64,000 nucleotides of DNA from Streptomyces rapamycinicus NRRL 5491 (GTDB taxonomy: Bacteria > Actinomycetota > Actinomycetes > Streptomycetales > Streptomycetaceae): contig NZ_CP085193.1 of assembly GCF_024298965.1 (NCBI RefSeq), positions 10,602,001 to 10,666,000 of the forward strand, in the 5' to 3' direction. This document shows, one piece after another, positions 1 to 62,657 of this stretch (the stretch's first letter is position 1; every line of letters begins with the position of its first letter). The notes below the pieces were generated by a model that worked only from the letters and a program-made list of their open reading frames with translations, was not told the DNA's origin and searched no databases. Both the position numbers and the translations under genes were made by a program.

Positions 1-363
1 CCCATGGTCGCGCCGATGGCCGAGGGTGCGGCGGAGCGCCGCCACGGCCCGCTGCCCGAGCGGGTCCGCGAGCGCGTCCGCTCGTACTCCGCCAGCGCCG
101 ACACGGTCGGGCTGTTCTTCGGCGAGGACTGCTTCCTGGCCATCGGCTCGATCCTGCTGATCACCGGGTTCGTCAACACCACGTACCACACCCACCTGGA
201 GCCCCTGCAGCTGGCGCTGTGGGCCATCCCCACCGCCGTCTGCGCGTTCCTCATCCACGGCTTCCGGCTGCTGCGCCTGGACCGCTCGCTGGACCACGAC
301 CTCGCCGCCTCCGGCGGCCGATCCGCTGCCGAGGGCAGCCGCACCGCGGAGGAAGCCAAGTGA
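1..363 (+). CDS. DUF969 family membrane protein, C-terminal part (5' end outside window)
   Basis: The reading frame is open from the first base, so the gene starts upstream and only about 120 C-terminal residues are present. It contains a hydrophobic segment (ALWAIPTAVCAFLIHGF) and the stretch VGLFFGEDCFLAIGSILLI, which I associate with DUF969 membrane proteins. Its TGA overlaps the GTG start of the next gene (GTGA). DUF969 and DUF979 proteins commonly occur as a pair and are thought to form a two-part permease; substrate unknown. Pairing with a pyroglutamyl peptidase gene suggests transport of pyroglutamyl peptides or of 5-oxoproline, which is inference. The Met at position 4 is internal to the protein, not a start. 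Confidence 0.75.
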   Translation, partial: PMVAPMAEGAAERRHGPLPERVRERVRSYSASADTVGLFFGEDCFLAIGSILLITGFVNTTYHTHLEPLQLALWAIPTAVCAFLIHGFRLLRLDRSLDHDLAASGGRSAAEGSRTAEEAK

Positions 364-1327
364 TCAAGGCGGAGTGGTTCTACTGGCTCGTCGGCGCCGT
401 CTTCCTCGCCATGGCCGCCCAGATGGTCGTCGACCGCACCAACCCCAAGCGCCTCGGCTCGGCCGCGTTCTGGGGGCTGCTCGGCGGCTGCTTCTTCTAC
501 AGCAGCTGGGTGGTGGAGAAGAAGGCCCCGGCCGAACCGCTGGGCGTCGCCGTCCTCGCCATGGTCTGCCTGGGCGGCTTCCCGCTCACCGGGCGCGGTG
601 TGCCGCGCACCACCACGCCCGAGCAGCGCGCCGCCTCGGCCGCCCGGCTCGGCAGCAGGCTGTTCGTCCCGGCGCTCACCATTCCGCTGGTCGCCGTCGT
701 GTGCGCCTCGGCCGTCAAGCACTGGCACATCGGGGGCGAACCGGTCCTGGAGGCGGGCAGCGAGACCATCCTGGGCCTCGGCTTCGGGGCGATCGTCGGG
801 CTGCTGGTCGGCATGGTCGTGGTGCGCGAGCGGCGGCCCGCGGTGCCGCTGCACGCGGGCCGGAGCCTGCTGGAGTCCATGGGCTGGGCGCTGCTGCTGC
901 CGCAGCTGCTCGCCGTGCTCGGCTCCATCTTCCAGGAGGCCGGGTGGGCACCCAGGTCGGCAAGATCACCGAACAGGTGCTGCCGGAGGGCCAGAAGTAC
1001 GTGGCCGTGGCCGTCTACTGCGTGGGAATGGCCCTGTTCACCGTCATCATGGGCAACGCCTTCGCCGCCTTCCCGGTGATGACCGCCGCCATCGGCTGGC
1101 CCGTGCTCATCCAGCAGATGCACGGGGACGCGCCCGTCGTCCTCGCCGTCGGCATGCTGGCCGGATTCTGCGGCACGCTCGTGACACCCATGGCCGCCAA
1201 CTTCAATCTGGTGCCCGCCGCCCTGCTGGAACTCAAGGACCAGTACGGGCCCATCAAGGCGCAGATCCCCACCGCCGGAGCGCTGCTGGTCTGCAACATC
1301 GCCATCATCTCGCTGTTCGCCTTCTGA
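360..1327 (+). CDS. DUF979 family membrane protein (one apparent frameshift)
   Basis: It starts at GTG 360, overlapping the DUF969 stop by 4 bp. It is a polytopic membrane protein of about 322 residues once corrected, with hydrophobic segments at [53 protein letters not shown] and [14 protein letters not shown]. As printed, the frame breaks at the GGG run at 942-944: upstream reads LGSIFQEAG and the next frame continues [11 protein letters not shown]. Adding one G gives a seamless protein to the TGA at 1325. It is probably the second half of a permease with DUF969. The break is more likely a sequencing deletion than a real mutation, because neighbouring genes show the same kind of lesion. Confidence 0.75.
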
Positions 1328-1340
1328 AGGGGCCGCTGCT

Positions 1341-1994
1341 GTGACCCGCGTGCTTCTCACCGGCTTCGAACCCTTCGCGGGCTCGGCCGTCAACCCGTCG
1401 TGGCAGGCCGTATCCCTGGTGGCCGCCGATCCGCCGCCCGGCACCGAGGTCACGGCCGTACAACTCGCCTGCGTCTTCGGCACCGCCCTCGAGGAGCTTT
1501 CCGCCGCCGTGGCGGAGGCCGACCCCGACCTGGTGCTGTGCGTGGGCCAGGCGGGCGGCCGTCCCGGTGTCACCGTCGAGCGAGTGGCGATCAACGTGGA
1601 CGACGCCCGCATACCCGACAACGCCGGTCGTCAGCCCATCGACGAACCGGTGGTCGAGGGCGGTCCCGCCGCCTACTTCGCGTCCCTGCCCGTCAAGGCG
1701 TGTGTCGCGGCCGTCCGCGAGGCCGGGATTCCGGCCGCCGTCTCACAGACCGCCGGAACGTTTGTGTGCAACCACGTCTTCTACGGTCTGGCCCATCTCA
1801 TCGCCACCGAGCGGCCCGCCCTGCGCGGCGGCTTCGTCCACCTCCCGTACGTGCCCGAACAGGTCGTGGACGGCGCCGAACCCGCACTGCCCGCCGCCCT
1901 GGCCGCCGACGCGCTGCGGGCGATCGTCGGGCGGCCGTGCACACCCGGACCGATCTGCGCGTCGCCGAGGGGGCAACGCATTGAACGCCTATGA
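1341..1994 (+). CDS. pcp: Pyroglutamyl-peptidase I (pyrrolidone-carboxylate peptidase, C15 family)
   Basis: Removes N-terminal pyroglutamate from peptides in the cytoplasm; a cysteine peptidase. The 217 residues match the family's usual length of about 200-220. Family hallmarks are present: N-terminal [11 protein letters not shown], the [17 protein letters not shown] region carrying the catalytic Glu, the nucleophile Cys in [16 protein letters not shown], and the catalytic His in [12 protein letters not shown]. The GTG start is 13 bp after the DUF979 stop, so it is cotranscribed with the putative permease. The last 14 bases overlap the DUF2891 gene. The operon context suggests uptake and salvage of pyroglutamyl peptides. 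Confidence 0.95.
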
Positions 1995-3074
1995 GCCGGA
2001 CGAGCCGAACGCTGCGAACGAGCCGGACGAGATGAACGAGCCGGACGGGACGAGGGGCGAACTCGGCCGGTACGCGGCCCGGTTCGCCGCCCTCGCCACC
2101 GCCAACGTCACCCGGGCCTACCCCAACGCCCCCGCGCATCTGCTGCGCGGTCCCGAGGACCTGGTCGAGCCGCGCCGGCACCACCCCGCCTTCTACGGCT
2201 CCTACGACTGGCACTCCGCGGTCCATATGCACTGGCTGCTGGTCCGGCTGCTGCGCCGCTGCCCCGACCGGATCCGCGCCGACGAGGTCACCGCCGTACT
2301 GGACGGGCACCTTACGGCCGGCGCCCTCGCCGCCGAGGCGGACTATCTGCGCGCCCATCCCTCCTTCGAGCGCCCTTACGGATGGGCCTGGCTGCTCGCG
2401 CTGACGGCCGAGTGCCGGAGCCTGCCGGGGCCCGCGGGCGAGCGCTGGGCGGAGGCCCTGGAACCGGCCGCCGACGCCGTGTGCGCACTGCTGAGCGAAT
2501 GGCTGGAACGCGCCACCTACCCGGTGCGGCACGGCGTCCACACCAACAGCGCCTTCGCCCTCGGCCTGGTCCTGGACAGCGCGGCCGCCGCGGGCGTCAA
2601 GGGATCGTCGAACCGGTCACCGAGGCCGTCCTCGACTGGTTCGCCGACGACCGTGACGCCCCCGTCCACTGGGAGCCCTCCGGACAGGACTTCCTCTCGC
2701 CCGCGCTCACCGAGGCCGAGACGGTCTGCCGGGTGCTGCCGGAAGAGGAGTTCGCGCGCTGGCTGGAACGTTTCCTCCCCGGCGTCGAATGGGGCGCGCC
2801 CGTCACCGTGCTCACCCCGCCCATCGTCTCCGACCCCGCCGATCCGCAGATCGGTCACCTCCTCGGCCTCATCCTCAGCCGGGCCGCCGCGCTCCGCCGC
2901 CTGGCCGCCGCCCTGCCGCACGGCGATCCGCGCGCGGACGTGCTGCGGACGGCGGCCCGTGACCATCTGGCCGCCGGGCTCCCGGCCACCGTCTCCGGGG
3001 ACTTCACCGGCGACCACTGGCTCGCCACCTTCGCGGCGCTCGCCCTGGACGGACCACCGGCCGGTGAGCCGTAG
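1981..3074 (+). CDS. DUF2891 family protein (one apparent frameshift)
   Basis: About 364 residues after correction. The TTG at 1981 is chosen because a GAGGGGG ribosome binding site lies 7 bases upstream; ATG 2032 is an alternative that skips an acidic Glu-Pro-Asp-rich leader. The core carries the His/Trp-rich stretch [18 protein letters not shown] and [16 protein letters not shown], typical of DUF2891 and reminiscent of helical-barrel sugar-processing folds. No biochemical role is known to me. As printed the frame shifts at the GGG run 2601-2603; one added G joins AAAAGVKG to [16 protein letters not shown] and the protein runs to the TAG at 3072. It overlaps pcp by 14 bp, so translation is probably coupled, and a link to peptide or oxoproline metabolism is inferred only from position. 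Confidence 0.7.
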
Positions 3075-3189
3075 ACTGACGGATCGGTGAGGTGCGGGGG
3101 CGCGCCGGTGTACACGCGTGCACGCGCGGGGACCTGGTGTGCCATAGCGGGATCTCCGTGCCGTTTCGTACGTTGTCGGTGCGACCGCC

Positions 3190-3205
3190 TACTCTGTGCG
3201 ACGTG
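3190..3205 (+). promoter_or_regulatory. Possible leaderless promoter for the SMC-like operon
   Basis: A TACTCT hexamer at 3190-3195 fits a -10 element (TANNNT) and lies 7 bases before the GTG start at 3203. No ribosome binding site precedes that GTG. This spacing is expected for a leaderless mRNA beginning at the start codon, which is common in Streptomyces. No convincing -35 element was found. Confidence 0.35.
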
Positions 3206-4733
3206 ACATCTCCACCCCCGGGGGCCGCCGCGCCCCAGCTCAACACCGCTGAAGGGGCCGCCCGGCCGGCCCCGGGCCCGGCCGCCGACGAGGGCCTGGC
3301 CCGGCGGTTGCGCGCGCTCGCCTGCACCGCGCCGCTGCACGACCTCGACGCGCGCAAGGCCAACCTCGCGGGGGAGTACGGGGTGTACGCGATGGCGGAG
3401 GTCGCCCTCGCCGCCATCGATCTCGTCACGCTCCACATGGACTTCGACACCGGCGCCGACCACGAGCAGATAGTGGTCAGGCTGCTGCCCCGGGTGGCGG
3501 CCCAGGCCCCCGGGCGCCCCGCCGCAGAGCACGACCGGGTCGCCCGCTGGGTGCTGGAGAACCTGATCAACGTCGGCAGCGTGGACCGCGGCTTCCGCGC
3601 CGTTTACGGCACCTTCGGACCCGATGGGGTGTATGTCCGCAGGGACTACGACTTCAAGCTGATCGAGGAGGTGCCGGGCCCCGGCGGCAGCGTCTATCTG
3701 CGCACCACCGACGAGGCGGTCAACGTCCTGGTCGGCGCCCTCGACACGGATGTCACCAGCGCCCAGATCGCCGCCGAGGTCAAGCTGGAGGTCCTGATCA
3801 GCCGGGGCCGCCTCGCCGATGCCCAACTCGCGGCCGAGCAGGCCCGCTACCGCACCGTGCAGTACTCGGAGACGCTGCGCCGCACCCTCGACGCCACCCG
3901 GCGCAACGTCCGCGCCGTCGACTGGCTGAGCACCGTCCCCGAGCTGATCAGCGAGGCGCTCGACCACGTAGCCGACCGCTACCGCCACGAGAACGCGATC
4001 CTCACCAACATCCGCAAGGCGCGCGACGAGGCCGAGAGCGCCGAGCACAAGCGGCGCGCCGCCGAGCTCGTCGACATCGTCAAGGACTGCATCCGGCGCC
4101 ACACCCAGCTGCAGTCCCGGCTGCTGGAGGCCGGTCCGCTGTTCCGCGCCGAGCAGGACCGCCAGGCCTTCGCGCCCCCGGCCCCGCGCTCCGGATACGA
4201 CCTGTACGGACAGCTACTGGCCCCCGTCCTCCCGCTGCCCGTCGAGCGTGCGGGCCGGGTCACCGACGCGTTCTTCGCCCGCGGCACGGGGCTGCGCACC
4301 CCGACCTCGGTGCGGATGAGCGACTTGGTCGAGATGCTGCTCACCCCGCCGTGGAGCGGGAGCACCTCGGCGCCGAGATGCCCGAGCCCGACCTCATCGC
4401 CACCCCCGACGACAGCCGCTTCAGCGAGGAGCAGCTGGCGGTGGCCATGGAGCTGCTCGAACTGCCCGCGGACGCCCCGCGACGGCTGTCCGGGCTGCTC
4501 GCCGACGCCCGCCGCCGCGACCCCGATCTGCCCTATCTGATCGCCCTCCTCACCGTCCACGCCGCGAGCCCCCGGTCGGCACCGCCTACCGCCAGGGCGA
4601 GCAGCGGCTGCTCTTCGCCGTGGACGACGGCACCGAGCTGGACGACCCCGAATTCGGCGGTGCCGACCTGATAGTGGGCACCGCCCTGCTGGACGCGGCC
4701 GGTATGGCGGCCGACCGCGCGGAGGTGGCGTGA
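3203..4733 (+). CDS. Kleisin-like subunit of an SMC-type complex (JetA/MksF/MukF-like; two apparent frameshifts)
   Basis: About 510 residues once two breaks are repaired (CCCC run 4344-4347; near CCCCC 4569-4573). The protein is cytosolic, with no signal or membrane segment. After a short Pro/Ala-rich start, residues about 30-160 look like a helical/winged-helix domain with the motif RRDYDFKLIEE. Next come TDEAVNVLVGALDTD and AAEVKLEVLISRGRLADAQ, then long charged helices rich in RRAAELVDIVKDCIRRH, as in the kleisin region that contacts the SMC neck. The order kleisin-KITE-SMC matches jetABC and mksFEB operons. I assign the role by architecture and neighbours, not a database match. The stop TGA overlaps an ATG (ATGA), and the KITE-like gene starts 43 bp later. 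Confidence 0.6.
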
Positions 4734-4780
4734 TGACCGCGACCCATGAGTACGCCCCGCGCGAGGAGGTTCAGCCGTGA
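4733..4780 (+). other. Possible 15-codon coupling ORF between the kleisin-like and KITE-like genes
   Basis: The ATG at 4733 overlaps the upstream stop (ATGA). The ORF reads MTATHEYAPREEVQP and its TGA (4778-4780) overlaps the GTG start of the next gene (GTGA). Ribosomes could pass through in two re-initiation steps. Alternatively, given the nearby one-base deletions, this is the true N-terminus of the KITE-like protein with one base missing. The GAGGAGGT ribosome binding site at 4762-4769, 7 bases before GTG 4777, argues that GTG 4777 is itself a start. Confidence 0.3.
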
Positions 4781-5660
4781 CCGAGTACGACATCGACGAG
4801 ATGACACCGCCGGACGCGGCGCCCGCCCCGGCGCCCGCCGGGCTGACGCCCGCCGACGCGGCCGACGCCGCGCGGCTGGTGGCCTTCGGGCTCCAGCCCA
4901 AGCTGCTGCCCGCGCGGGACGTCGAATACGCCGAACTGCTGCGCCGCCACCGCGACGAACCGGCGTTCGCGCGCCTCACCGACGCCATCGCCGCCGGTCT
5001 CGGGCTCATCGTGCTGGAGGTGTCGACCCGCGCCGGAATGGCGGTGACCGCCGCCGAGGACTCCGTCTTCGCCGTCCGCATGGGCGACTACGCCCGGCGC
5101 GCCGCCACCGACTCCGCCGACCGCTTTCTGCACGGCCTCGCCCATCTCGCCGTCGCCGCCCTGGCGTTCCCCCGCCCCGAGGACCTCGCCGACGACGGCT
5201 ATATCGGCCGCGTCACCGTCAACGGGGTCGACGCCTTCGTCCGCCAGGCGTGCCGGCGGCTGGAGGAGCGCGCCGAGGAGCAGGGGGAGAACACCGACCC
5301 CGCCACCGGTGCGCCCGGACTGGAGTCCGCCTGGCGGGTCTACGCCCGGCGCAGCGCGACCGGCGCCACCAAGGACGCGCGCAGGCTCGCCGGTTCCACC
5401 ACCGGCATCGTCGGCAAGGCCGTCGCCTTCCTGGTCGACTCCGGCTTCCTCCAGCGCACCGGCGACGAATCCGGCGGCACCTACCGCACGACCGCCCGCT
5501 ATCAGCTCCAGGTGCGCGACATGGCGGCCTCCGCCGCCATGGCCGAGCTGCTGGAGCTCGGCGTCGTCCCCGTCGGAGACGGCGGCGCCACCCTGCTGCC
5601 CCCGACCAGGGCGACGACCTCGACCTGGTGGCCGACGCCGGTCTCCCCTTCCACTCCTGA
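4777..5660 (+). CDS. KITE-like winged-helix subunit of an SMC-type complex (JetB/MksE-like; one apparent frameshift)
   Basis: About 294 residues after correction. GTG 4777 has an excellent ribosome binding site (GAGGAGGT, 7-base spacing). Two regions look like consecutive winged-helix domains: residues about 25-110, including LLRRHRDEPAFARLTDAI, and about 170-260, including GTYRTTARYQLQVRD. This arrangement fits the MukE/MksE/JetB class. As printed the frame breaks at the CCCCC run 5599-5603; adding one C restores ...LLPPDQGDDLDLVADAGLPF and a TGA at 5658-5660, just before the SMC-like gene. An acidic C-terminus follows. Assignment rests on operon order and predicted fold; with no family match confirmed it could be an unrelated wHTH protein. 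Confidence 0.55.
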
Positions 5661-5723
5661 ACCCCGACGCCCGGCCCCCCGCCAGCCCGACACCACCACA
5701 CCTTCCGACAACGAGAGTCCGCC

Positions 5724-8700
5724 ATGTACGAGCTGTCCCGGATCCGCCTCTACTCCATCGGGCCGGCCGGTGCGCGTTACGCCGACACCGTGCTGGACCT
5801 GCGCGGAGTCGGCGAGCCGGTGCCCAGCCCCGCGCCCACCCAGGCGGAGTTCTTCGAGGAGGAGCCGGTCGGCCCGCCGCGCCGCCCCGCCCCCGCCGGG
5901 GTGCTCTTCCTGGAGAACGGCGGCGGCAAGTCCGTCCTGCTCAAGTTGATCTTCTCGGTGATGCTGCCCGGCCATCGCAACACCCTGGGCGGCGCCAGCT
6001 CCGGTGTGCTGCGCAAGTTCCTGCTCGCCGACGACTGCGGGCATGTCGCGCTGGAGTGGCAGCACACCGTCACCGGTGAGACCGTCGTCGTCGGCAAGGT
6101 CAGCGAATGGCGCGGCCGTCAGGTCTCCAACGACCCGCGGAAGTTCGCCGAGGCGTGGTACTCCTTCCGGCCCGGCCCCGGAATGAGCCTGGACTCGCTG
6201 CCGGTCGCCGAGTCCGCCGCGGTGCGGCCCGTCGTCGAGGGCGCCTCCACCGCCCGCGGCCGCCGCCGCACCATGAAGGGGTTCCGTGACGCCCTTACGG
6301 AGGCCGCCAAGGCGTACCCGCATCTGGACGTGGTCTGGGTGGAGATCCACGAGCGCTGGAACGAACACCTCGGCGAACTCGGCCTCGACCCCGAACTCTT
6401 CCGCTACCAGCGGGAGATGAACGCCGACGAGGGCGAGGCCGCCGGGCTCTTCGCGGTCAAGAACGACTCCGACTTCACCGACCTCCTGCTGCGCGCCGTC
6501 ACCGACACCCGCGACACCGACGGGCTCGCCGACCTCGTCCACGGCTTCGCCCACAAGCTGGGCCGCCGCGCCGAGCTGACCGCCGAGCGTGAATTCACCG
6601 CCGGTTCGCTCGATCTGCTCCAGCGCATCGCGGACGCCGCGGAGCGGCGTGAGCAGGCGCGCGGTGTGCACGCGGGCGCCGAGCGCCGCACCCGTACGCT
6701 GGCCCGGCGGCTGTCCGCGCGCGGCGCCGAGGAGCGGGCGCGTGCCGCCGAGCTCGCCGAACGGGTCGCCTCCGCCGCCGAGGCCGTCACCGCCGCCGAG
6801 GGCGCGCGCGGCCGCAGCGACCTCGTCGCCGCCGAACTCGCCTTCCGGCACGCCTCCTTGGCGCTCGCCGCCGCCGAGAAGGGCGCCGCCGCGCAGCGCC
6901 GCGAGCTCAACGACGCCCGCACCCTGCACTCCGCCTGGCAGGCCGCCGAGACGGTGCTGCGCCACCGCGCCGCCGCCGACCGGTCCGCGCGCGTGGCCGC
7001 CGCCATCCGCGAGGCCGAGCGGGACGCGGCCCCCGCGCTCGCCGCCCGCGCCAAGGCCGCCGCCGACCTCGTCCGCGCCCTGCACGCGGCCGCGGAGGAC
7101 GGCGAGCGGGTCGCCAACGAGGAGGAGGAGCGCTCCGCCGGCCTCCAGGAGGCGGGCGAGGCCGCCCACCGCGACGCCACCTCCGCCGCCACGGCGGCCC
7201 AGCGCGCCCGCAGTGACGCCGAGCATCTGCGCCAGCGGCTCGCAGAGGTCGAGCAGGAGACTGCCGAGGCCGTCCGCGCCGGATGGCTCGACGACTCCGC
7301 CCCCGACGCCGACCCGGCCCGCGCCGCACTCGCCGCCAGCGACGCCGAGAAGACCACGGTCGCCGCCTTCGACGAGGCCCGCGAGACCGCCCGGCGCACC
7401 GCCGACCACGCGAAGTCGGCCGCCGCCGAGGAGGCCCGCACCGAACTGGCCGCGGCGCGAGCGGTGGACGCGGCCCGGGCCGCGCAGTCCGCGTACGACG
7501 CGGAGCGGCGCGCCGCTGAGGCGCTGGGCGCGGAGCAGCGCCTGGTCGAACTGCTGGGTCTGCCGCAGCCGTCCGCCGCCGTCCCCGCCCCGCGCGGCGC
7601 CGAGACCCGCCCGTCACCGGCGGACGCGCGCGCGGCGCGCGGGGTGACGGTACGCATTCCGGACGCGGACGGCGTGGGCCGCCGAGGCGCCCGGGCCCTG
7701 CCGACCGACTCCGACCGGGCCGGGTGGATCACGGTCCACGTGGACGAGGAGGACGGGGACGACGTCGGCCTCTCGCAACTCCCCGCCGCCTTCCGCGCGG
7801 ACCCCGCCGCCCACACGATCCCCGTGGACGGCGAGCCCGCGCCCCACGACCACGCCTACGCCCCCGAGGAGCCCCCACCGACACCCGCGCCCGCCTCGCG
7901 ACAGAGGACGCCACCGGACCGGGCGCCGCCCCGGGTTCCGGAGCCTGGTCGACGGATGCCGTCGCCGACGCGGAGGGCGCCCCGCCGTTGCGGGGGACAG
8001 CCTCTCGGCCGCTGGACCGGTGGGCGGGGCAGATCGGGCGGAGCGCGACGCCGCCTCCGTCGGCGACCGGTGGCTGGGCACCGGCCGGGGTGACGGGGCG
8101 GGGGACACCGCGCTCGTCGGTGGTGAGGCGGAAGGGACGCGGCCCGCTCGGCATGGGGCGGCCTGCGCCGAGGACGCGGAGGCGAGTCCGGGGGAGGCTC
8201 ACCGGCGTCGTCCGCTCGCCGCGGAGTCGCGGCCCGCGGGGCGGGTGACGGTGCGGCTCGACGACGCCGAGGGCGCCCCCTCGGGCGATGACGGCCCGCG
8301 CCCGGAGGACCCGCGCGGCGGCGCCCCGGCCGTGGCGGACGGTCACCGGCCGTCCGGGGGCGTGTTGGCTCCGGTCGGGGACGGTGACGGGGGTCAGTGC
8401 GGGACGGGGGTCGCCACCGGCACCGCCGTCATTACCGACGCGGCGCCGTCGGGCCGCCCGCGCGGCGGCGCCCGGGTGGTGGCGGCCGGCTCCCGGCCGC
8501 CCGGGGAGGTGTCGGCCCGGGTCGGGGGCCACGACGACGGTGAGGGCGCATCAGAGGCTGCCGCCGACGCCACCGACGGCGGTCAGGCTGAGGCGGAGGC
8601 CGTTACCGGTAACGCCGACAACCACGCCGCCGATACCGACTCCGTCACCGGCACCGCCGACAACCACGCCGCCGCCGACGCCGGTTCCGGCTCCACCGCC

Positions 8701-11541
8701 GACGACTCCGACTGCTGGAGCCCCGAGCCCGGCGGCGAGCCGGACCGCGACCGCGGTCGCCGCCCCAAGACCGCCCCGCGGACCCTCGTGGACGGGCCGC
8801 TCACCGCCGAGGAGTTGGACCGGAACGCCGAGGCGTTGCGGGAGCTGCTCGAGGAGAGCGTGGGCTCCGCCGAGCGGCAGTTGTTCGAGCTGCGGACCGC
8901 TGCCGCCGAGGACGCGCGGATCCTGGGGGCGCTCGGTGACGGAGGGCTGTTGCCGCCCAGCGCCGATGTGCTGGCGGCCGTCGAGTTCCTCGGCGAGCAC
9001 GGCATCCCCGCGCTCCCGGGCTGGCGCTATCTCGCCCAGGCCGTGGACCCCGTCGACCACGCCGCCGTGCTCGCGGCCCGGCCCGAGCTGGTGGACGGCG
9101 TCGTCATCACCGACCCCGGCACCCACGCCCGCGCCCGTGAGGTGCTCGGCCAGGCGTCGCTGCTGCCGCGGTCCGCCGTGGCCGTCGGGACGTCGGCCGC
9201 GCTGCTCGCGCCGACGCCCGCGCCCGACGCCGAGGACAGCGGGGTCTTCCTCGTGCCGCCGAACCCGGCGATGCACGACGAGCGCGCCGCCGACGACGAG
9301 CGGCGCGAGCTGCGGGCCCGTGCCACCGCGCGGGACGAGGAGATCAGGGCACTCGCCGCCCGGCTGGCCGGGGACCGGGCGCTGTCCGCGCGGCTCGCCT
9401 CCTGGCGCACCGGCTGCCCGGCCGGGCGGCTCGCGGAGCTCGCGGCCGCGGCCGAGACCGCACGGGAGGCCGCCGACACCGCGCAGAGCGACCTCGTGGA
9501 GGCGCGCACGGCACGGGCCGAGGCCGACGAGGCCGCCACCGAGGCCGCCCGGGTCCGGGACGAGCGCCAGGAGGCGGCGCAGCGGGCCCGCCGGGTGGCG
9601 GACGCGCTGGCGGGTCTGGCGTACCGGCTGCGGGAGCGCGCCACCTGGCAGACCCGGCTGCGCGAACTGGCCGAGGAGGCCGTCGAGTACGAGGAGCGCG
9701 CCGCGGGCTGTGTGGACCGGGCCCGCGCCGCCGACGAGGACCGGCGCGCCGCCCAGCGCGCGGCCGACGACGCGCGCCGTACCGCCCGCGCCCTGCGCGC
9801 CGAGCGCGCGGAGATCGCGGGTGCCCCCGACGACCTCGGCGAGGCCACCGGGCCGCCCTCCGCCTCGCTGCCCGCGCTCCGCGAGGCGTACCGCGCCGCC
9901 TCCCAGGTCTACGAGAAGGTCGGCGTCGGCGCCGACCTCCGCGCCGAACAGGCCCGCGCCGAGAGCGACGAGAGCGCGGCCCTCGCCACCCTCGACCGAC
10001 TCACCAACAAGGTCCGCACCCGCGCCGCCCAGCTCCTGGAGGGCACCGACGGCGCCGACGGCCCCTCCCGGCAGGCCGCCGCCGCCCGCGCCGAATCGCT
10101 GGTCCAGATGCTGGAGAGCCGAGCGTCGACGGCGAGCGAGCAGCTGGGCCGGCTGCGCGGCGAGGCCGAGCGGCTCGCCCCCGCCGACGGCGACGCCCAC
10201 ACCGAGCTGCCGGAGGAGACCGTCCCGGCCGACGCCGAGCAGGCGAAGGAGCTGCTGCGCAGCGCCAACGGCGAACTGGCCGCCCGTACGGACGCCCTGG
10301 AGAGCGCCCGCACCGCCCACGCCGACCTGGTGCGCGCCCACCGCGCCGCCGAGGACGCCGCGGGCGGCTTCGACGAGACCGCCGCCCTGCTGCGGGATCT
10401 GCTGCGGGACGGCCCCGGCGCGGAGGACGACGGCGAGCGGCCCGAGCCGTACGCCGGGGATCTCGCCGAGGCCCGTCAGGCCGCCGCCGAGACCCGCCGC
10501 TCACTGCGCGGCTGCGCCGCCGACCTGTCGGCGGCCGAGTCCTCGCTGCGGGAGGCGAGCGACGTCCTCGTACGGCACGCCAACTCCACCCGCTACGAGC
10601 AGGTGCGCACCCCCGCCCGCCAGCAGATCCGCGAACTCCCCGCGGCCGCGCTGCCCGAGCACGCCGCGGCCTGGGCCGAGGCGTTCGCGCCCCGGCTGCG
10701 CGTGCTCACCGACGAGTTGGAGCAGCTGGAGCGCAACCGCGACTCGATCGTGGACCGGCTGCGCGGCCTCGTCGAGTCCTGCCTGGCCACCCTGCGTTCG
10801 GCGCAGCGGCTCTCCCGGCTCCCGGAGGGGCTCGGCGAGTGGTCGGGCCAGGAGTTCCTGCGGATCCGCTTCGAGGACCCCGATCAGGCCTCGCTCACCG
10901 AGCGGCTCGGCGAGGTCATCGACGAGGCCACCCGCTCCGCCGTCCGGAAGAACTCCGATCTGCGCCGGGACGGCATGTCGCTGCTGCTGCGCGGGGTCCA
11001 TGCCGCGCTCCAGCCGCGCGGGGTGGCCGTGGAGATCCTCAAGCCGGACGCGGTGCTGCGGGCCGAGCGGGTGCCGGTGGGGCAGATGGGCGATGTTTTC
11101 TCCGGCGGCCAGCTGCTGACCGCCGCCATCGCGCTGTACTGCACGATGGCGGCCCTGCGCAGCAACGACCGGGGCCGGGACAAGCACCGCCACGCGGGCA
11201 CGCTCTTCCTCGACAACCCCATCGGCCGCGCCAACGCCACCTATCTGCTGGAGCTCCAGCGGGCGGTGGCGGACGCGTTGGGGGTGCAGCTGCTCTATAC
11301 GACGGGGCTGTTCGACACCACGGCGCTGGCCGAGTTCCCGCTGGTGATCCGGTTGCGCAATGACGCGGATCTGCGGGCCGGGCTGAAGTACATCAGCGTC
11401 GAGGAGCATCTGCGGCCGGGGCTGCCGGTCCGCGAGCCGGAGGAGGAGCAGCAGGTCCACGGCCAGATCACCGCCACCCGGATGTACCGCCGCCCCGAGG
11501 CGGACGCGGAGGCGCCGGACGGGGCGGCGGACCGGGCATGA
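5724..11541 (+). CDS. Giant SMC-like coiled-coil ATPase (JetC/MksB/MukB-like; two apparent frameshifts)
   Basis: About 1,939 residues after repair at CCCCC 7872-7876 and GGGGG 7992-7996. Head, N-terminal half: Walker A-like ENGGGKS (residues 64-70), with Leu in place of the usual first Gly. Then a long Ala/Glu/Arg-rich coiled coil (about 250-620). A disordered acidic, Gly/Ala/Asp-rich stretch of about 300 residues follows (7840-8780). Next is a hinge-like region (HGIPALPGWRYLAQAVDP, then LVDGVVITDP), then a second coiled coil. Head, C-terminal half: ABC signature FSGGQLLTAAIAL and Walker B TLFLDN, where the usual catalytic Glu after Asp is Asn. Probable DNA-loop-extruding or chromosome/plasmid-organising ATPase acting with the two upstream genes. 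No toprim nuclease (JetD) gene follows. It converges with the Ig-repeat gene 10 bp away, with no terminator hairpin between. Confidence 0.7.
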
Positions 11542-11551
11542 GCCCGGTGGG

Positions 11552-14500
11552 TCATCCCGAACCGGTGTTCACCGTCTGGGTGACGGATGCCGAGGAGGCC
11601 GCGTAGTTGACGTCCCCGTTGTAGTTGGCGGTGACGGTGTGCGTCCCCTTCTGCAGCGGGTTGAACGTCGCGGAGGCGGTGCCGTTCACCAGCGTCACCA
11701 CCTGGGGCGTCCGGTCGGTGATGGCCAGGGTGACGGTTCCGGTGGGCGTCCCCGTACCGGGGGCGACGGAGGAGACGGTCGCGGTGACCGTCACCGGATC
11801 GCTCACCAACGAGGGGTTCGGGGAGGAGACCACGGCCGTGGTGGTGGCCGCCTTGTTCACGGTCTGGGTGTCGGTGCCACTGGACGTGGCGAAGTTCTCG
11901 GTCCCGTTGTAGGTGGCCGTGATGGTGAACGGGCTCCCGGTGGTGGTCGTGTAGGTGTGGGTGACGGTCGCGATGCCGCCGGAGAGGATGCCCACGGCGG
12001 TGTTGGTGCCGTCGCCGAACGAGAAGGTGACCGCTCCGACCGGGGTGCCGGACGCGGACGAGACCGTCGCCCTGATGGTCACCGGCTGGCCCACCACCGA
12101 GGGGTCGGGGATCGAGGTCACGGTGGTGGTGGTCGCGGCCTTGGCGTTGATGGTCTGGGTGTCGGTGCCGCTTGACGCGTTGAAGTTGATGTCCCCGTTG
12201 TAGGTGGCCGTGATGGGGAAGGGGCTGCCGGTCCTGGTGGTGTAGGTGTGGTTGACGGTCGCGACGCCGCCGGAGAGGGTCACGGTGCTGTTGCCCGTAC
12301 CGTCTCCGAAGCTGAAGGTCACGGTGCCGGTGGGGGTTCCGGCGCCGGGGGAGAGAGATCCCACGGTGGCGGTGAGGGTCACCGACTGCCCGGTCGCCGA
12401 GGGGTCCGGCGCGGAGACCACGGCCGTGGTGGTGGCCGCCCGGCCCACGGTCTGGCTGTCGGAGCCGGTGGAGGTCGTGTAGTTGGTGTCGCCGTTGTAG
12501 GTGGCGGTGACCGTGTAGGGGCTGCCGGTCCTGATGGTGTACGGGTGGGTGGTGGTGGCCGTGCCGCCGGACAGGGGCGCGGTGACGGTGGGTGCGCCGT
12601 CCCCGAAGGAGAAGGTGACCGTCCCCGTCGGGATTCCGGCGCCGGGGAGGACCGATGCCACGGTGGCGGTGAGGGTCACGGTCTGGCCGGTGACGCTGGG
12701 GTCGGGCGCGGAGGCGACGGTGGTCGTCGTGGCCGCCTTGTTGACCGTCTGGCTGTCGGTACCGGTGGACGAGGTGTAGCCGTTGTCCCCGTTGTAGGTG
12801 GCGGTGACGGTGTACGGGCTGCCCGAGGTCCCCGCGTAGGCGTGGGTCACGGTGGCCACGCCCCCTGCGACCGGCGCCGTGGCGGCCGGTGTGCCGTCCC
12901 GAAGGAGAAGGTGACCGTCCCCGTCGGGGTTCCGGCGCCCGGCCCGACCGCGGTGACGGTGGCGGTGAGGGTCACGGTCTGGCCGCTGACGGTGGGGTCG
13001 GGCGCGGAGGCGACGGTCGTGGTGGTGGCCGCCTTGTTGACGGTCTGGGTGTCGGTGCCGGTGGAGGGCGCGAAGCCGGTGTCGCCGTTGTAGGTGGCGG
13101 TGACGGTGAAGGGGCTGCCGGTGGCTCCGGCGTACGCGTGGGTGGCGGTGGCCGTGCCACCGGACAGGGGCGCGGTGACGGCCGGGGTGCCGTCCCCGAA
13201 GGAGAAGGTGACGGTGCCGGTGGGCGTCCCGGTGCCCGGGGCGAACGCGGTGACGGTGGCGGTGAGGGTCACGGTCTGCCCGGTGACGCCGGGGTCGGGC
13301 GAGGAGGACACCGCCGTCGTGGTGGCCGCCCTGTTGACCGTGTGCACATCGGTGCCGGTGGACGCCGCGTAGTCGGTGTCCCCGTTGTAGGTGGCCGTCA
13401 CGGTGTACGGGCTGCCGGAGGTCCCCGCGTAGGTGTGGGCGACGGACGTGAGGCCGTCGGCGAGCGGCGCGGTGGCGGTCGGCGTGCCGTCGCCGAAGTC
13501 GAAGGTGACCGTCCCGGTCGGCACCCCGGCCCCCGGGGCGACCGGCACCACCGTCGCGGTGAGGGTGGTGGGCTGACCGCTGACCGTGGGATCCGGCGAG
13601 GAAACCACCGCCGTCGTGGTGGCCGCCTGGTGCACGGTCCGGGCGTCGGTGCCGCTGGACGGGAGGAAGCTGGGGGCGCCGTCGTAGGTGGCGGTCACCG
13701 TGAAACCGTCGGCGCTCGTATAGGTGTGGCTGATGGTGGCCACCCCGCCGGTCAGCGGCGCCGACGCGGCCGGGGCGCCGTCGCCGAAGTCGAAGGTGAC
13801 GGTGCCGGTCGGCACCCCCGCCCCCGGGGCGACGGGGGCCACGGTCGCCGTGACGGCCACCGGCTGCCCGACCACGGAGGGATCGGGCGCGGAGGTCACC
13901 GCCGTGGTCGTGGACGCCGGGGCGACCGTCTGGGTGTCGGTGCCCGCGGATGAGCTGAAGTTGACGTCCCCGCTGTAGGAGGCGATGACCGTGTACGGGC
14001 TGCCCACCGCGGTCGTGTAGGGGTGGACCACGGTCGCCACCCCGGCGGAGAGCGAAGCGGTGGCGGTCGCTGTGCCGTCGCCGAAGCCGAAGGTCACCGT
14101 GCCGGTGGGCACCCCGGCACCGGGCGGGGTCGGTGCCACGGTCGCGGTGAAGGCCACCGCCCGGCCGGTCACCGAGGGGTCCGGCGACGAGGTCACGGTG
14201 GTCGATGTGGTGGCGGCGCTCACCAGCACCGTATGCGTCGCGGTGGCGGTGGACGGCGCGAAGTCGGCGTCGCCGCTGTAGGCGGCGGTGGCCGTGAAGG
14301 GGCTGCCGACCGAGGTCGCGTAGGGGTGGGCCACGGTGGCCACCCCGCCGCTGACCGGTGCGGTGGCGGTCGGCGAACCGTCGCCGAAGTCGAAGGTGAC
14401 CGTGCCGGTCGGGCTGCCCGCCCCCGGGGCCGCGGCGGAGACCCTGGCGGTGAAGGTGACCTGCTCGCCCGCCACGGACGGGTCCGGCGAGCTGACCAGG

Positions 14501-17500
14501 GAGGTGGCGGAGTCCGCCTGACCGACCGTCTGGGTGTCGGTTCCGGTGGAGGCGGTGAAGTCGGCGTCGCCGCTGTAGGAGACGGTGATGGTGTACGGGC
14601 TGCCGGAGGTGCTCGCGTAGGTGTGGGTGATGCTCGCCGCCCCCTGGGCCAGCGGCGCGGTGACGGCCGGGGTGCCGTCGCCGGGGTCGAAGGTGACGGT
14701 GCCGGTGGGGATTCCGTCCCCCGGTACGGCCGGTGCGACGGTGGCGCCGATGGTCACCGCCTGACCGGCCACCGAGGGGTCGGGGGCCGAGGTCACCGTG
14801 GTGAAGGTCGCGGCCGGGTTCACGGTGTGGGTGGCGGTGCCGGTGGACGCGGTGAAGTCGGCGTCGCCGCCGTAGTCCGCCGTGATGGTGTACGGACTGT
14901 CGAAGGCGATCGGATAGGCGTGGGTGATGGTCGCCGCCCCGCCGACGACCGGCGCCGTGACGGTCCCCGTGCCGTCGCCGAAGTCGAAGGTGACCGTGCC
15001 GGTGGGGGCTCCGGCTCCGGGCGCGACGGCCGTGATGGTGGCGGTGACCGTCACCGGCTGGCCGGTGACCGACGGATTCGGCGACGAGTCCACCGTCGTC
15101 GTCGACAACGCCCGCTCGACGAGGTGCGTCTCCGTGTTCACCGAGCCGATGAAGCGGGCGTCCCCACCGTAGGCGGCGGTGACCGTGTACGGGCTGCCCG
15201 CCGCCGTCGCGTACGTGTGCGCGGCCGTCGCCACACCGTCCGCCACCGGGACGTCGACCGGCGCGGTGCCGTCGCCGAAGTCGTAGGTCACCGTGCCCGT
15301 GGGCGCGCCCGCGCCCGGGGCGACCGGCGCCACCCTCGCGAGGAACGTCACCGGCTGGCCCGTGACCGACGGCTCCGGCAGATCGCTGATGGCGACGGTG
15401 GTCGAGGCGCGGCCCACGGTCTGGGTGCCGGTGCCGGGGGACGTGAGGAAGTCCGCGTCGCCGTCGTAGGTGGCGGTGATGGTGTACGGGCTGCCGGAGG
15501 CGTCGGTGTAGGCGTGGCTGACGGTGGCCACGCCCCCCGCCATGGGCGCGGTGACCGGGGCCGTGCCGTCGCCGGGGTCGAAGGTGACGGTTCCGGTGGG
15601 GGTTCCGGCTCCCGGTGCGACGGCGGAGACGGTGGCGGTGAGGGTCACCGGCTCACCCGTCACCGAGGGATCGGGCGAGGAGGCCACATCGGTGTGGGTG
15701 GCGGCTTGGGCGACGGTGTGGGTGTCGGTGCCGGTGGAGGCGGTGAAGTCGGCGTCGCCGCCGTAGTCCGCCGCGATGGTGTACGGGCTGCCCGAGGTGT
15801 CGGCCCAGGCGTGGGTGACCGTGGCCACCCCGGCCGTGACCGGCGCGGTGGCGGGGGCGGTGCCGTCCCCGAAGTCGATGGTGACGGTTCCGGTGGGGGT
15901 TCCGGCTCCCGGTGCGACGGCCGAGACGGTCGCGGTGACGGTCACCGGCTGGCCCGCCACCGACGGATCCGGTGCCGAGACCACCGCCGTGGTGGTCAGG
16001 GCCCGGCCCACGGAGTGGGTGACGAGGTCGCCGGAGCCGGTGAAGTCGGGGCTGCCGCCGTATGTGACGGTGACGGGGTACGGGCTGCCCGCCGCGGTCG
16101 TATAGGCGTGCACGGCCGTTGCCAGGCCGTCGACGACCGGGGCCGCGGCCGGGGTGCCGCCGTCGCCGAAGTCGAACGTCACCGTGCCCGTGGGCGAGCC
16201 CCCGCCCGGTGCCACCGGCGCCACGGTCGCCGTGAAGGTGACCGGCTGGCCCACGACGGACGGCTCCGGCGCGGAGCTCACCGTGGTGGTCGTCGCGGAC
16301 TGCAGGACGGTTTGCGGCTCGGTGGCCACCGAGGACCGGAAGTCGTCGCTGCCGCCGTACGTCGCGGTGATCGTGTACGGGCTGCCGAGGCTGCTCGCGT
16401 ACGTGTGCGAAAGGATGGCGGCCGCACCGGTCAGGGGCACGTCGACCGGCGGAGTGCCGCCGCCGAAGTCGAAGGTGACCGTGCCCGTCGGCGTTCCCGC
16501 CCCCGGGGAGACCGCCGTGACCGTGGCGGTGACGGTCATCTCCTCGCCCACCACCGACGGATCGGGATCGGCGGTCACCGTGATGGTGGTCGAGGACGGC
16601 TGCACGGTGTGCACGTCGGCGCCGGTGGAGGGCGCGAAGTCGCCGTCGTCGCCGTAGGTGGCGCTGATGGTGTACGGGCTGCCGGACGTCCCCGTGTAGG
16701 CATGGGTCACCGCCGCCACACCGGCCACGCTGGGCGCGGTGACCGTCGGCGTGCCGTCGCCGAAGTCGAAGGTGACGGTGCCGTTGGTGGTGCCCGAACC
16801 AGGGGCGACGACCGCCACGTTGGCGGTGACGGTCACGGGCTGGCCGACCTCGGTCGGGTCCGGCGAGGAGAAGACGGTGGTGGAGGTGGCCCCCGGGTTC
16901 ACGGTCTGGGTGAGGGTGTCCGCGGATCCGGTGAAGCTCACGTCCCCGTCGTAGGTGGCGGTGACGGTGTAGGGGCTGCCCGCGGTGTCCGGGTAGGCGT
17001 GGACGGCGATCGCCGTCCCGTCGGTGAGGGGCGCCCGGACGGTCGGAGTGCCGTCGCCGAAGTCGAAGGTGACCGTGGAGGACGGGGTCCCCGCGCCCGC
17101 CTGTCCCGATGCCACGGTCGCGGTGAAGGTGACCGGCTGGCCGGTCACGGACGGGTTCGGCGCGGAGGTCAGCGTCGTGGACGACGGGGCCGGGGTCACG
17201 GTCTGGATGTCCAACCCGGCCGACCCGGTGAAGTCGCCGTCCCCGCTGTAGACCGCGCTGATGGTGTACGGACTGCCCGCAGTCGAGGCGTAGGCATGGC
17301 TGGTCGTCGCCGTGTCGCCGGTCAGTGGGACGGTGACGGTCGGCGTGCCGTCGCCGAAGTCGAACGTCACGGTCCCGGTGGCGGTGCCCACGGCGGGCGG
17401 CAGGACCGTCACCGTCGCGGAGACGGCCACCGCCTCGCCGACGACGGACGGGTCCGGGGTGGTGCTCACCGTCGTCGCGGTGGCGGAGACGCTCATCGCC

Positions 17501-20500
17501 ACCGGCTGGACGGCGGTGCCGGTGGAGGTGGCGAAGTTGTCGTCACCGCTGTAGGTGGCGGTGATGGTGTACGGGCTGCCGGTGGTGGAGGTGTAGGCGT
17601 GCGTCGTCGTGGCCACACCGTTCGCGACCGGCACGGTGGCGGTCGTGGTGCCGTCGCCGAAGTCGAAGGTCACGGTGCCGGTGGCCGCGCCCGCGCCCGG
17701 CGGCACCGGCGCCACCCGCGCGATCAGCGTCACGGTCTGGCCCACCGCCGACGGAGTCGGTGACGAGGTCACGACGGTGGTGGTCGCGGCCGGTTCGACG
17801 GCGTGGACGAGGGTGTTCTCGGACGGGGCGAAGTCGCCGTCGCCGCCGTACTCGGCCGCGATGGTGTACGGGCTGCCCGCCGTGCTGGCGTAAGCATGGG
17901 TGACCGTGGCCGAGCCGCTCACCAACTCGGCGGTGACCGCCGGGGTGCCGTCCCCGAAGCCGATGGTGACCGGCCCGGTCGGGGTGCCCGCGCCGGGCCC
18001 GGTGGGGACCACGGTGACCGTGACCAGCTCCCCCGTGACGGTCGGGTCGGGCGTGGCGGTGATCGTGGTGGCGGTTCCGGCCGGGTCGACGGTGTGGAGG
18101 CGGGTGCCGACGGATGCCACGAAGTTGGCGTCGCCGTCGTAGTCGGCGGTGACCGTGTACGGACTGCCGACCGCGGTGGTGTAGGCGTGGTCGGTGGTCG
18201 CCGAACCGCCGGTGAGGGGGAGGGCCACGGGCGCGGTGCCGTCGCCGAAGTCGAAGGTCACCGTGCCGGTCGGGGTGCCGGAGGCGGGGGGCACGGCCGC
18301 GACGGCCGCGGTGAAGGTCACCGTCTGGCCGGTCACCGAGGGGGACGGCGAGGTGGTCAGCACCGTGGTCGACACGCCCTGGACGACCTGATGGGTGCCC
18401 GCCGCCGAGGACGTCAGGAAGTTCGGGTCGCCGCTGTAGCTGGCCGCGACCGTGTACGGGGTCGCCGACTCCGGGTTGGTGTGGGCGACCGTGGCCGTGC
18501 CGCCGGTCACGGGCGCCGTGACGGGTGGCGTGCTGTCGCCGAACTCGAACGTCACCGTGCCCGTGGGCGAACCGGCCCCCGGGGTGCCGGGGGTGACCTT
18601 CGCGATGAACGTCGTGGACTGCCCCACGCTGGACGGGTCGGGCACGGAGCTGAGGGCGGTGGCGGTGGCGGCCGGTTCGACGGTCTGGGTGTCGGTGCCG
18701 CTGGACGCGGTGAAGTCCACGTCGCCGTTGTAGGTGGCGGTGACCGTGTAGGGGCTGCCCGTGGTGTCGGGGTAGGCGTACGTGGCGGTCGCGGTGTCGC
18801 CTGAGAGGGAGGCGGTGAGGGGCGGGGTGCCGTCCCCGGGGTCGAAGGTGACCGTCCCGGTCGGGGTGCCCGCGCCGGGCGGCACCGCCGTGACCGTGGC
18901 GGTGAAGGTCACGGGGTCGCCCACCGCCGAGGGGTCGGGCGCGGTGGTCACGGCGGTGGCGGTGGCGGCCGGCTGGACGGTCTGCGAGTCGGTGCCGAGG
19001 GACGTCAGGAAGTTCGCGTCACCGTTGTAGGTGGCCGTGATGGCGTACGGGCTGCCGGAGGCGCCGGTGTAGGTGTGCGTGGCCGCCGCCTGGCTCGCGG
19101 ACACGGGCTGGGTGACGGTCGGGGTGCCGTCGCCGAAGTCGAACGTCACCGTGCCCGTCGGCGTGCCCGCCCCCGGGGCGACCGCCGTGACCGTGGCGGT
19201 GACGGTCACCGGCTCGCCCACCGCCGAAGGATCGGGCGCGGAGGACACGGCGGTCGCGGTCGAGGACTGCCCCACCGACTGGAGGTCCGTCCCCGTGGAG
19301 GCGGTGAAGTTCGTGTCGCCGTTGTAGGTGGCGGTGATGGTGTAGGGGCTGCCGGCGGTGTCGGTGTAGGTGTGGCCGGTGGTCGCCGTGCCGCCGGCGA
19401 GGGGCGCCGTGACGGTCGGGGCGCCGTCCCCGAAGTCGAAGGTGACCGTCCCGGTGGGGGTGCCCATACCGGGTGGTACGGCCGTGACCGTGGCGGTGAT
19501 GGTCACCGGCCGGCCGACGACGGACGGACCCGGTGCGGAGCTCACCGCGGTGGCCGTCCCCGCCTGCTCGACGATCTGGGCGTCCGTGCCCGTGGAGGCG
19601 GTGAAGTTCGTGTCGCCGTTGTAGGTGGCGGTGACCGGGTACGGGCTGCCGGAGACGTCCGCGTACGCGTGGGTCACCGTGGCCGCACGGTTCGTCAGCG
19701 GCTGGGTGACGGCCGTGGTGCCGTCGCCGAAGTCGAACGTCACCGTGCCGGTGGGCGCACCGGCCCCGGGCGGCGCGGGGGCCACCTGGGCGATGAAGGT
19801 GACGGTCTGTCCGGGCACGGACGGATCGGGGGCGGAGTTCACCGTGGTGGTGGTCGAGGCCTGGCCCACGGTCTGGGTGTCCGTGCCCGTCGAGGCCGTG
19901 AAGTACAGATCGCCGCCGTACTCGGCGGTGACGGTGTACGGGGCGGCCGACGGCGCGGCGTAGACGTGGCCCACCGTGGCCGTGCCACCGGTGAGGGAGA
20001 CGGCCACGGTCGGGCTTCCGTCGCCGAAGTCGAAGGTGACGTTGGAGGTGGGGGTGCCCGCCGTGGGCGGAACGCCCGCCACCACGGCGGTGAAGGTCAC
20101 CGGCTGGCCGACGACGGAGGGGTCGGGCGCGGAGGTGAGGGTCGTGGTGGACGGCGCCACGTAGTTGAAGCCGTCCGGAACCGTCACGCTGCCCCCGGCG
20201 GTGGTGACGGTGATGTCGGCGGGGCCGGGCACGTTCGGGGGCGTCACCACGACGAGCAGGGTGTCGGAGATCGACCCGAAGGACGTGGCGGGGACGCCGC
20301 CGAAGGTGACGGCGGTGACATGCCCGAGCCCGGTGCCGGTCAGGACGACGGGCTCGCCGCCCGCGGTGGACCCCGTGGCCGGGCTGACGTCGGTGACGAC
20401 CGGCACGGCGGCATAGGTGTAGAGCAGCCGGTTGCTCACCCCGCCCACCGTGATGACGTACACCGGAACGGTGCCGGGCCCCGAGGCCGGGGGAGCGGTC

Positions 20501-21198
20501 ACGAGGAGGTGCTGGTCGGAGACGGCCGTGGGGTGGGCGACGGAGTCGCCGAAGTGCACCAGCCCCGCGGTGCTCAGATTGACGCCGGTGAGCTCGACGA
20601 TGTCGCCCCCGCCGAGCGGTCCGGCGACGGGCGTGATGCCGGTCAGGGTGGGCCAGGGGAGGTAGAAGAACGAGCCGATGGGGGCCGTGCCGCCCGGGGT
20701 GGTGACATACACCGGGACCGAGCCCGTCCCCGAGGGGCTCACCGCGACGATGGTCTGGTCGTCGAGGACGGAGAAGCTCGCCGCCCGACGGGTGCTGAAG
20801 AACACGTCCGTGGCGCCCGAGAAGTGGCTGCCGATGACGGTCACCAGCGTCCCGCCGCTGTACGGGCCCTGGTCGGGGAAGATCCCGGCGAACTGGTTGA
20901 AGAGCTCGTACGCGCCCAGCGGGCGAACGGCATCGAGGCCCGACCGCGCCCCGGGGAGCACCGGCCGGTCCGGATCGCCGGGGAGGGGGCCCATCAGGGT
21001 GCCGCGGCGGAGAGCGGCCAGCGCGTCGAGGCGGTCGAGCGCGGTGCGCACCACCAGCCGGTCGGGCATGCTCCGCGCCGGGAGCGGGATCGGCGCGCTG
21101 AGCGTCGGAACGAGCCTGTGGGATTCCGGATCCACGACGGCGATGCAGTTCTCACCGGGATCGGTGACGAGGACGAGTCCCAACGGGCGACAGGGCAT
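11552..21198 (-). CDS. Giant IPT/TIG and Ig-like repeat protein (one apparent frameshift)
   Basis: About 3,215 residues. ATG 21198 is preferred, with CGGAG 6 bases upstream; an upstream GTG at 21255 lacks a ribosome binding site. The N-terminal 60 residues resemble one beta-propeller blade (LVLVTDPGENCIAVVD). Residues about 75-350 form three IPT/TIG domains with the pattern SGGTLVTVIGSHFSGATDVFF. Then come 29 tandem repeats of about 93 residues. Each opens with a variant of SAPDPSVVGQPVTFTA, includes GTVTFDFGDG, and ends TATYNGDTNFTASTGTDTQTV. They combine bacterial Ig-like group 3 and PKD-like features. The frame breaks at 12898-12900, where one repeat has GTCCCGAAGG and the others GTCCCCGAAGG. 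No signal peptide, sortase motif or C-terminal membrane anchor is visible, so the export route is unclear. Probable adhesive, structural or cell-surface role. Confidence 0.75.
11560..20150 (-). repeat. 29 tandem copies of a ~280-bp Ig-like module
   Basis: I counted 29 openings of the SxPDPSVxGQxVTxTA type, 25 before and 4 after the frameshift. Units are diverged at the nucleotide level but keep fixed phase, so the array is protein-level selected rather than a recent amplification. Such an array is prone to recombination and to assembly collapse, so the true copy number may differ. Confidence 0.9.
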
Positions 21199-21421
21199 GA
21201 CGGCTCCGATCTGGCAAGGCGTCTTCCACTCCGCCGGAAAGGATGGGCAGCCCACCGGAATCGGACGGATTCAGTAACCCATTCCAGTGGGACCCGGGCA
21301 ATATCCTCGGCCGTGGCTCACCCGAATGGCGCAGCGCGCACCGCACCGTCCCGCCCCGCCCTGTCGTCCCGCCCCGCCCCGCCGTCCCGGACCCGGAGCC
21401 GGAGCCGGACGGACTCCCCGG

Positions 21422-57527: not shown

Positions 57528-62434
<4,907 letters not shown>

Positions 62435-62537
62435 CAGGTGCTCGCGTCCACTGTGTTGGTTCTGAAGCAACGAACCGTCCGACCCCCATACTTCTATGTT
62501 TTTGGGTGTGGGTGGGTCCGGTGGTGTGTTTCATAGT

Positions 62538-62657
62538 GTTTCGGTGGTCATTGCGTTAGGGAAACGCCCGGTTACATTCCGAACCCGGAAGCTAAGCCTT
62601 TCAGCGCCGATGGTACTGCAGGGGGGACCCTGTGGGAGAGTAGGACGCCGCCGAACA
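62538..62657 (+). rRNA. rrf: 5S ribosomal RNA
   Basis: 120 nt from GTTTCGGTGGTCATTGCG to GACGCCGCCGAACA. It has complementary ends and the conserved CCGAACCCGGAAG loop. It lies about 103 bp after 23S. Confidence 0.97.

Follow-up and report, generated by a model that had tools for sequence, protein, structure and literature searches.

A JetABC-type SMC operon of Streptomyces rapamycinicus with no JetD nuclease gene and a DNA-damage-type promoter motif

Wadjet systems restrict plasmids by means of a JetABC complex of the structural maintenance of chromosomes (SMC) kind, which extrudes loops of DNA and works with a separate effector (PMC12647877; this and the other papers are cited for the portions of their text that were covered). 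In Streptomyces, such systems have been placed towards the chromosome ends (PMC10482375). A second body of work concerns the RecA-independent damage response of actinobacteria, for which the promoter consensus TGTC(G/A)G-N10-TA-N3-T has been given (PMC8151990) and whose regulator PafBC is activated in mycobacteria by single-stranded DNA (ssDNA) (PMC11804915). Streptomyces has PafBC homologues (PMC9380542), and a promoter of this type, RecA-NDp, precedes recA and the UV-inducible gene SCO6735 of S. coelicolor (PMC5087735). Here we describe a jetABC operon of Streptomyces rapamycinicus NRRL 5491 located at positions 3203-11541 of a 64,000-nucleotide stretch (contig NZ_CP085193.1, positions 10,602,001 to 10,666,000; hereafter the window). 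With moderate confidence, we read it as a nuclease-less derivative of a type III Wadjet that would now be induced by DNA damage and extrude loops in the service of genome maintenance, kept vertically as a core component in the Streptomyces family. The parts of the locus, all on the + strand, are as follows.

3173..3195, +: promoter motif TTGTCRG-N10-TAnnnT of the RecA-NDp / PafBC type, ending 7 nucleotides (nt) before the jetA start codon
3203..4733, +: jetA-like kleisin gene (PADLOC JetA3; tblastn against S. iranensis; AlphaFold2 fold), frame broken in this assembly
4777..5660, +: jetB-like gene, probable KITE subunit (homology to the JetB-position protein of Wadjet III operons), its end in another frame
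5724..11541, +: jetC-like SMC ATPase gene (PADLOC JetC3; ATPase motifs), frame broken near 7860-7996, within the variable insert
7600..8790 (approximate), +: variable SMC insert rich in P, G, S, T, D, E, Q, N and A, from the first coiled-coil arm to the hinge-like region

A sequence-only reading of the window had proposed that these genes encode, in that order, a kleisin, a JetB-position protein and an SMC ATPase of the JetABC kind, and profile searches bear this out. The JetA3 profile of PADLOC (PDLC00567) gave 524.8 bits for the first window piece and 623.6 bits for the intact JetA of S. iranensis, and JetC3 (PDLC00588) gave 565.2 and 871.5 bits for the SMC pieces of the window, while Pfam and NCBIfam gave no match for any jetABC piece of the window. 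The kleisin assignment of the first protein is further supported by its AlphaFold2 model (predicted local distance difference test, pLDDT, 76.1), for which MukF headed both structure lists and E. coli JetA was among the fold matches; the fold thus resembles MukF, although no Foldseek match reached an E value of 0.001 or below. A search of a viral fold library gave no JetA match at that threshold, no sequence match linked JetA to a MukF/MksF-type kleisin, and none of JetA, JetB and JetC matched a JetABC or MukBEF chain when solved structures were searched by sequence. The 240 best database matches shown were to proteins named, among others, hypothetical protein, membrane protein or DUF3375.

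The second protein, for which the sequence-only reading had proposed a tandem winged-helix fold, is probably the KITE subunit, as suggested by its 51% identity over 236 amino acids (aa) to the JetB-position protein of a JetD-bearing Wadjet III operon (L118). It had no match in Pfam, NCBIfam or PADLOC, and PADLOC likewise missed the JetB of another JetD-bearing operon (L113). Its AlphaFold2 model (mean pLDDT 46.7) was too poor for a fold search, and when type III JetB and JetA profiles were set against their type I/II counterparts, for which four sequences were used, no match was found.

In JetC, the columns of Walker A (NGGGK), the signature (SGG) and Walker B (LDNP) are kept in 13/13 aligned sequences. 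SMC ATPases usually carry a catalytic glutamate at the Walker B position where JetC has asparagine; this LDNP form is present in all 13 aligned JetC proteins of core and type III operons. The insert between the anchors measures 430 aa in S. iranensis versus 40-51 aa in nine JetD-bearing relatives, and ranges from 46 to 430 aa in the Streptomyces family and from 42 to 126 aa in a second family (f18, see below). Since these lengths overlap those of the JetD-bearing forms, the insert was rejected as a general hallmark of the nuclease-less clade.

Comparison of the window with the intact S. iranensis proteins (locus L001; JetA 510 aa, JetB 294 aa, JetC 1914 aa) by tblastn shows that jetA, from 3203, is spread over three frames, that jetB, from 4777, stays in one frame up to its last residues, which lie in a different one, and that jetC falls into two pieces in two frames, 5724-7859 and 7996-11535. 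Five of the eight L001 genes that match the window are split over at least two frames, including those for DUF979, DUF2891 and Ig-repeat proteins (window 1-3090 and 11552-21255), and the best-placed window pieces are 87-100% identical to intact S. iranensis genes. Because unrelated neighbours are split as well and all pieces are nearly identical to intact genes, frequent indels in the assembly appear likelier than decay and a pseudogene reading was rejected as likely. Intact relatives were therefore used for analysis, and the window frames were left uncorrected.

No JetD gene adjoins the operon: as the sequence-only reading had it, the gene after jetC is convergent and encodes Ig repeats (Pfam Big_3_5). 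The same reading had left open either an MksBEF-like condensin or a Wadjet derivative with a remote nuclease; of these, descent from a type III Wadjet is the better supported, MksBEF proper is not favoured, and a remote JetD found no support. Searches of the S. rapamycinicus genome with PF09983 (JetD_C) and with JetD3 of PADLOC (PDLC00594) gave no match. PF09983 matched 18/150 Streptomyces genomes and misses some type III JetDs (that of operon L120, for instance), for which reason the JetD3 search was added. JetD3 was found in 24 of 200 genomes of the family and in 21/150 Streptomyces genomes, of which 11 scored at least 150 bits and 10 scored 20-32 bits. The strong matches adjoin a second jetC where fetched, and lie far from the core jetC or on a different contig. 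True jetABCD operons thus sit elsewhere, in a minority of Streptomyces. One Streptomyces contig (L120, genome G090) carries a jetABCD operon near both of its ends, 11 kb and about 11-16 kb from them, as if the copies lay in terminal inverted repeats.

The absence is not peculiar to one strain. Nine JetD queries (tblastn) found no match in the window and none in 109 core loci, some of them shortened by contig ends and with the gene after jetC visible in 10 of the 15 f18 loci, whereas 15/15 JetD-bearing control loci matched; a strain-specific loss of JetD was rejected on these grounds. Clustering of the neighbours within 10 kb revealed no evident nuclease, most clusters being without a family scan. 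Since no JetD, the toprim-type nuclease, was found either next to jetABC or elsewhere in the genome, the complex was not filed as a Wadjet system.

The operon is conserved throughout the family. JetC3 was found in 147/150 Streptomyces genomes, and a JetA profile matched 198 of the 200 family genomes and all 17 genera, one of which (g123) counts solely through a weak match in genome G445 (E 5.7e-38) that is possibly not the core copy. Eighty Streptomyces loci, the best 80 of more than 538 relatives and hence near ones, were compared after calling their genes with a simple gene caller of our own. The A-B-C order is kept in 71 of them, that is, in every locus with room, a contig end truncating the other nine on their upstream side; 11 loci from ten further genera of the family have the same order. 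In a class-level draw the JetA profile matched 44/296 genomes, comprising 28 Streptomyces, 15 members of f18 (four genera) and one marginal match with internal stops; in a phylum-level draw it matched 11/246, eight of them Streptomyces. Median protein identities across the 71 loci are 90% for JetA, 87% for JetB and 84% for JetC, and the dN/dS medians among close pairs (0.087, 0.120 and 0.109, respectively) point to purifying selection on all three genes. ScpA is encoded elsewhere in the S. rapamycinicus genome, so that jetABC is, as the sequence-only reading had proposed, a predicted second SMC complex beside SMC-ScpAB.

Close relatives are rare on mobile elements. JetA had no match in 50,697 phage records; JetB matched 5 of 72,556 plasmid records, none above 60% identity, and had no relative in viral contigs. 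A single JetA match in viral contigs, 86% identical to the core form, lies on an IMG/VR contig of 30,935 bases (L123) and is perhaps host flank taken for virus.

Two features go beyond what the sequence-only reading had noted: this family-wide conservation and the DNA-damage-type promoter before jetA. The motif ends so close to the start codon that the jetA transcript would be leaderless. The window holds two exact matches against 0.02 expected from shuffled sequence, and the bases ahead of jetA are conserved among relatives. An exact motif precedes jetA in 57 of the 71 loci and a relaxed one, drawn up after viewing the 14 loci lacking an exact match, in all 71; every locus has an in-frame start downstream, at a distance of 7 nt (70 loci) or 6 nt (one locus), that opens a JetA of 501-514 aa. 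These loci total 1.59 Mb and contain 58 exact matches, all but one of them at jetA (57), and no match to the reversed pattern. In the other genera of the family the motif at jetA is exact in 6/11 loci and relaxed in 11/11.

To see what else the motif precedes, its sites in the S. rapamycinicus genome were counted: there are 32, against one for the reversed pattern. Thirty were fetched; a gene was called immediately downstream of 26 of these, in one case jetA. Eleven of the other 25 genes carry repair or replication domains, namely RecA, RuvC, NAD-dependent ligase (ligA), MgsA, UvrB, a second UvrB-interaction protein, DnaX-like, DnaE-like, AlkZ-like, UDG and RecD2-like; we take the second UvrB-interaction protein to be Mfd. 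Eight other family genomes contain 25-54 sites against 0-3 reversed, and four f18 genomes 3-6 against 1-5, with little or no excess. These counts and the downstream repair genes together indicate that, in the Streptomyces family, this motif is the mark of a damage regulon, in line with the RecA-NDp promoters of S. coelicolor recA and SCO6735 (PMC5087735), and by its sequence jetABC would belong to it.

The second exact motif of the window, TTGTCAGTGGTCCCGGTTACGGT, lies at 53600-53622; an open reading frame of 317 aa begins at 53658, and Pfam gave no match for the 275 aa gene called there. Among Streptomyces operons of Wadjet type I/II, four of four (L165-L168) carry the exact motif upstream of the called jetA start, at a distance of 78-152 nt, and plasmid-restricting Streptomyces Wadjets may therefore be damage-inducible as well.

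Phylogenies of the complex bear on how the nuclease-less form arose. A quick tree of 41 operons placed all nuclease-less forms on one side of a branch (Shimodaira-Hasegawa-like approximate likelihood ratio test, SH-aLRT, 86). A careful tree, with 24% of bootstraps for such a grouping, did not fix their position relative to the JetD-bearing pair L118/L150, and a single nuclease-less clade was not rejected (approximately unbiased test, AU, p 0.416); when a Rhodococcus plasmid operon with annotated JetD was added, such a clade received 52%. On these values a single JetD loss was not shown. Under the chosen outgroup, JetD-bearing forms lie both outside and beside the nuclease-less ones and, because they stand on both sides, loss of JetD is likelier than its original absence; JetD was probably lost, once or twice. 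Branches are short within the core and long among the JetD-bearing operons, and every tree was flagged for long branches and for skewed composition. L078 and L163 are identical.

The surroundings of the operon are partly shared. Within eight genes, 62 Streptomyces loci have an upstream regulator-like gene in common, 57 a gene that we take to be LamB/YcsF-like, and 56 a downstream histidine kinase with a NIT domain (Pfam of one member); the f18 loci have different neighbours, including a TerD gene. At the far end of the window a complete ribosomal RNA (rRNA) operon (16S, 23S and 5S; 57527-62656) accounts for the dip in G+C at the right end.

In the reading that we favour, a type III plasmid-restriction system would have shed JetD and become the core JetABC-type SMC complex of the Streptomyces family. 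By analogy with Wadjet (PMC12647877), the complex would still load on DNA and extrude loops with ATP; without JetD, extrusion would no longer end in cutting. If the mycobacterial mechanism holds, the operon would be switched on by a PafBC-type, RecA-independent damage response with ssDNA as the trigger, and the complex would have as its target the cell's own chromosomes when these are damaged or entangled; in the multi-genome hyphae it might, for example, keep broken ends, and sister or homologous copies, from coming apart. A bolder form, which we put forward tentatively and hold rather less probable than not, makes the complex a bacterial counterpart of Smc5/6, that is, a formerly plasmid-cutting immune SMC complex that has shed its nuclease and become a repair-dedicated extruder induced through ssDNA-sensing PafBC. 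Should this be correct, Wadjet systems and genome repair would share one regulatory logic.

Several points weigh against this domesticated maintenance complex. Its function is read from the promoter and the conservation, the trees do not decide between one JetD loss and two, and the literature covered held no demonstration of loop extrusion by a Wadjet III complex. The f18 loci, JetD-less too, have the motif at jetA in 0/14 cases exactly and in 2/14 in relaxed form. The covered portion of PMC9380542 reports that the PafBC motif of M. smegmatis was not seen to be conserved in S. venezuelae in an initial search. In addition, the exact motif precedes 4/4 type I/II jetABCD operons, and type III jetABCD operons carry it in 1/9 (exact) or 3/9 (relaxed); since JetD-bearing operons share the motif, it fits a defence role too, and it may be an old Wadjet control trait kept after domestication.

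That sharing, together with the descent from a defence system and the activation of mycobacterial PafBC by ssDNA (PMC11804915), would suit an immunity that does without a nuclease: JetABC would use extrusion to detect circular or linear DNA of foreign origin and would silence or sequester it without cutting, like Smc5/6 on viral circles, with conjugative ssDNA inducing the operon through PafBC. We regard this as unlikely, as the complex is near-universal in the family, slow-evolving and fixed in gene order, in contrast to the patchy and fast-evolving jetABCD operons, and its close relatives occur on few plasmids and in none of the phage records. The family-wide conservation would also agree with a more general role, as a second, MksBEF-like condensin that folds chromosome arms or serves in spore compaction and has the damage promoter as one input of several; ScpA being present as well, such a complex would be redundant or specialised. 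This we think decidedly unlikely, because the damage-type motif is the only conserved regulatory feature seen in the 71 loci and the covered portion of a paper on Streptomyces SMC (PMC13121528), in which Wadjet is not mentioned, names no second complex of that kind. Finally, the Wadjet could be split in trans, the complex recruiting a nuclease of another family encoded elsewhere. JetABC of Wadjet does work with a separate effector (PMC12647877), and the genome searches were aimed at the JetD family rather than at other nuclease families. The lack of a JetD-family protein in the S. rapamycinicus genome, the restriction of strong JetD3 matches to a few Streptomyces genomes, each away from the core jetC, and the neighbour clusters described above nevertheless make this arrangement very improbable.

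The locus would be a concrete example of immune SMC machinery recruited for core genome maintenance, and the genus includes model strains in which this can be tested. Studies of Streptomyces chromosomes have a second SMC complex to take into account, and the promoter motif opens the proposed role to direct test. The motif also bears on the question of whether a RecA/LexA-independent damage response exists in Streptomyces, left open in the covered portion of PMC9380542, and the locus cautions that JetA and JetC matches do not by themselves denote a Wadjet defence system. Our literature searches, with subscription papers mostly outside their scope, found no paper describing a Streptomyces JetABC that lacks JetD; what is new here is the damage-type motif 6-7 nt before jetA in 71/71 loci.

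Among described systems, MksBEF of Pseudomonas aeruginosa differs in that a sequence link to the Streptomyces complex was not detectable here. With the PafBC / RecA-NDp regulon the operon shares TTGTCRG-N10-TAnnnT before jetA, in the right place and orientation, although no SMC complex is named as a member in the portions of the literature covered. The closest likeness is to Wadjet type III, in the JetA and JetC families, the A-B-C order, the ATPase motifs and the hinge-like region. From it, the S. rapamycinicus complex differs by having no jetD adjoining or found in the genome, and the Streptomyces core complex by being near-universal in its family, by evolving more slowly and, in many of its Streptomyces members, by carrying a variable insert before the hinge.

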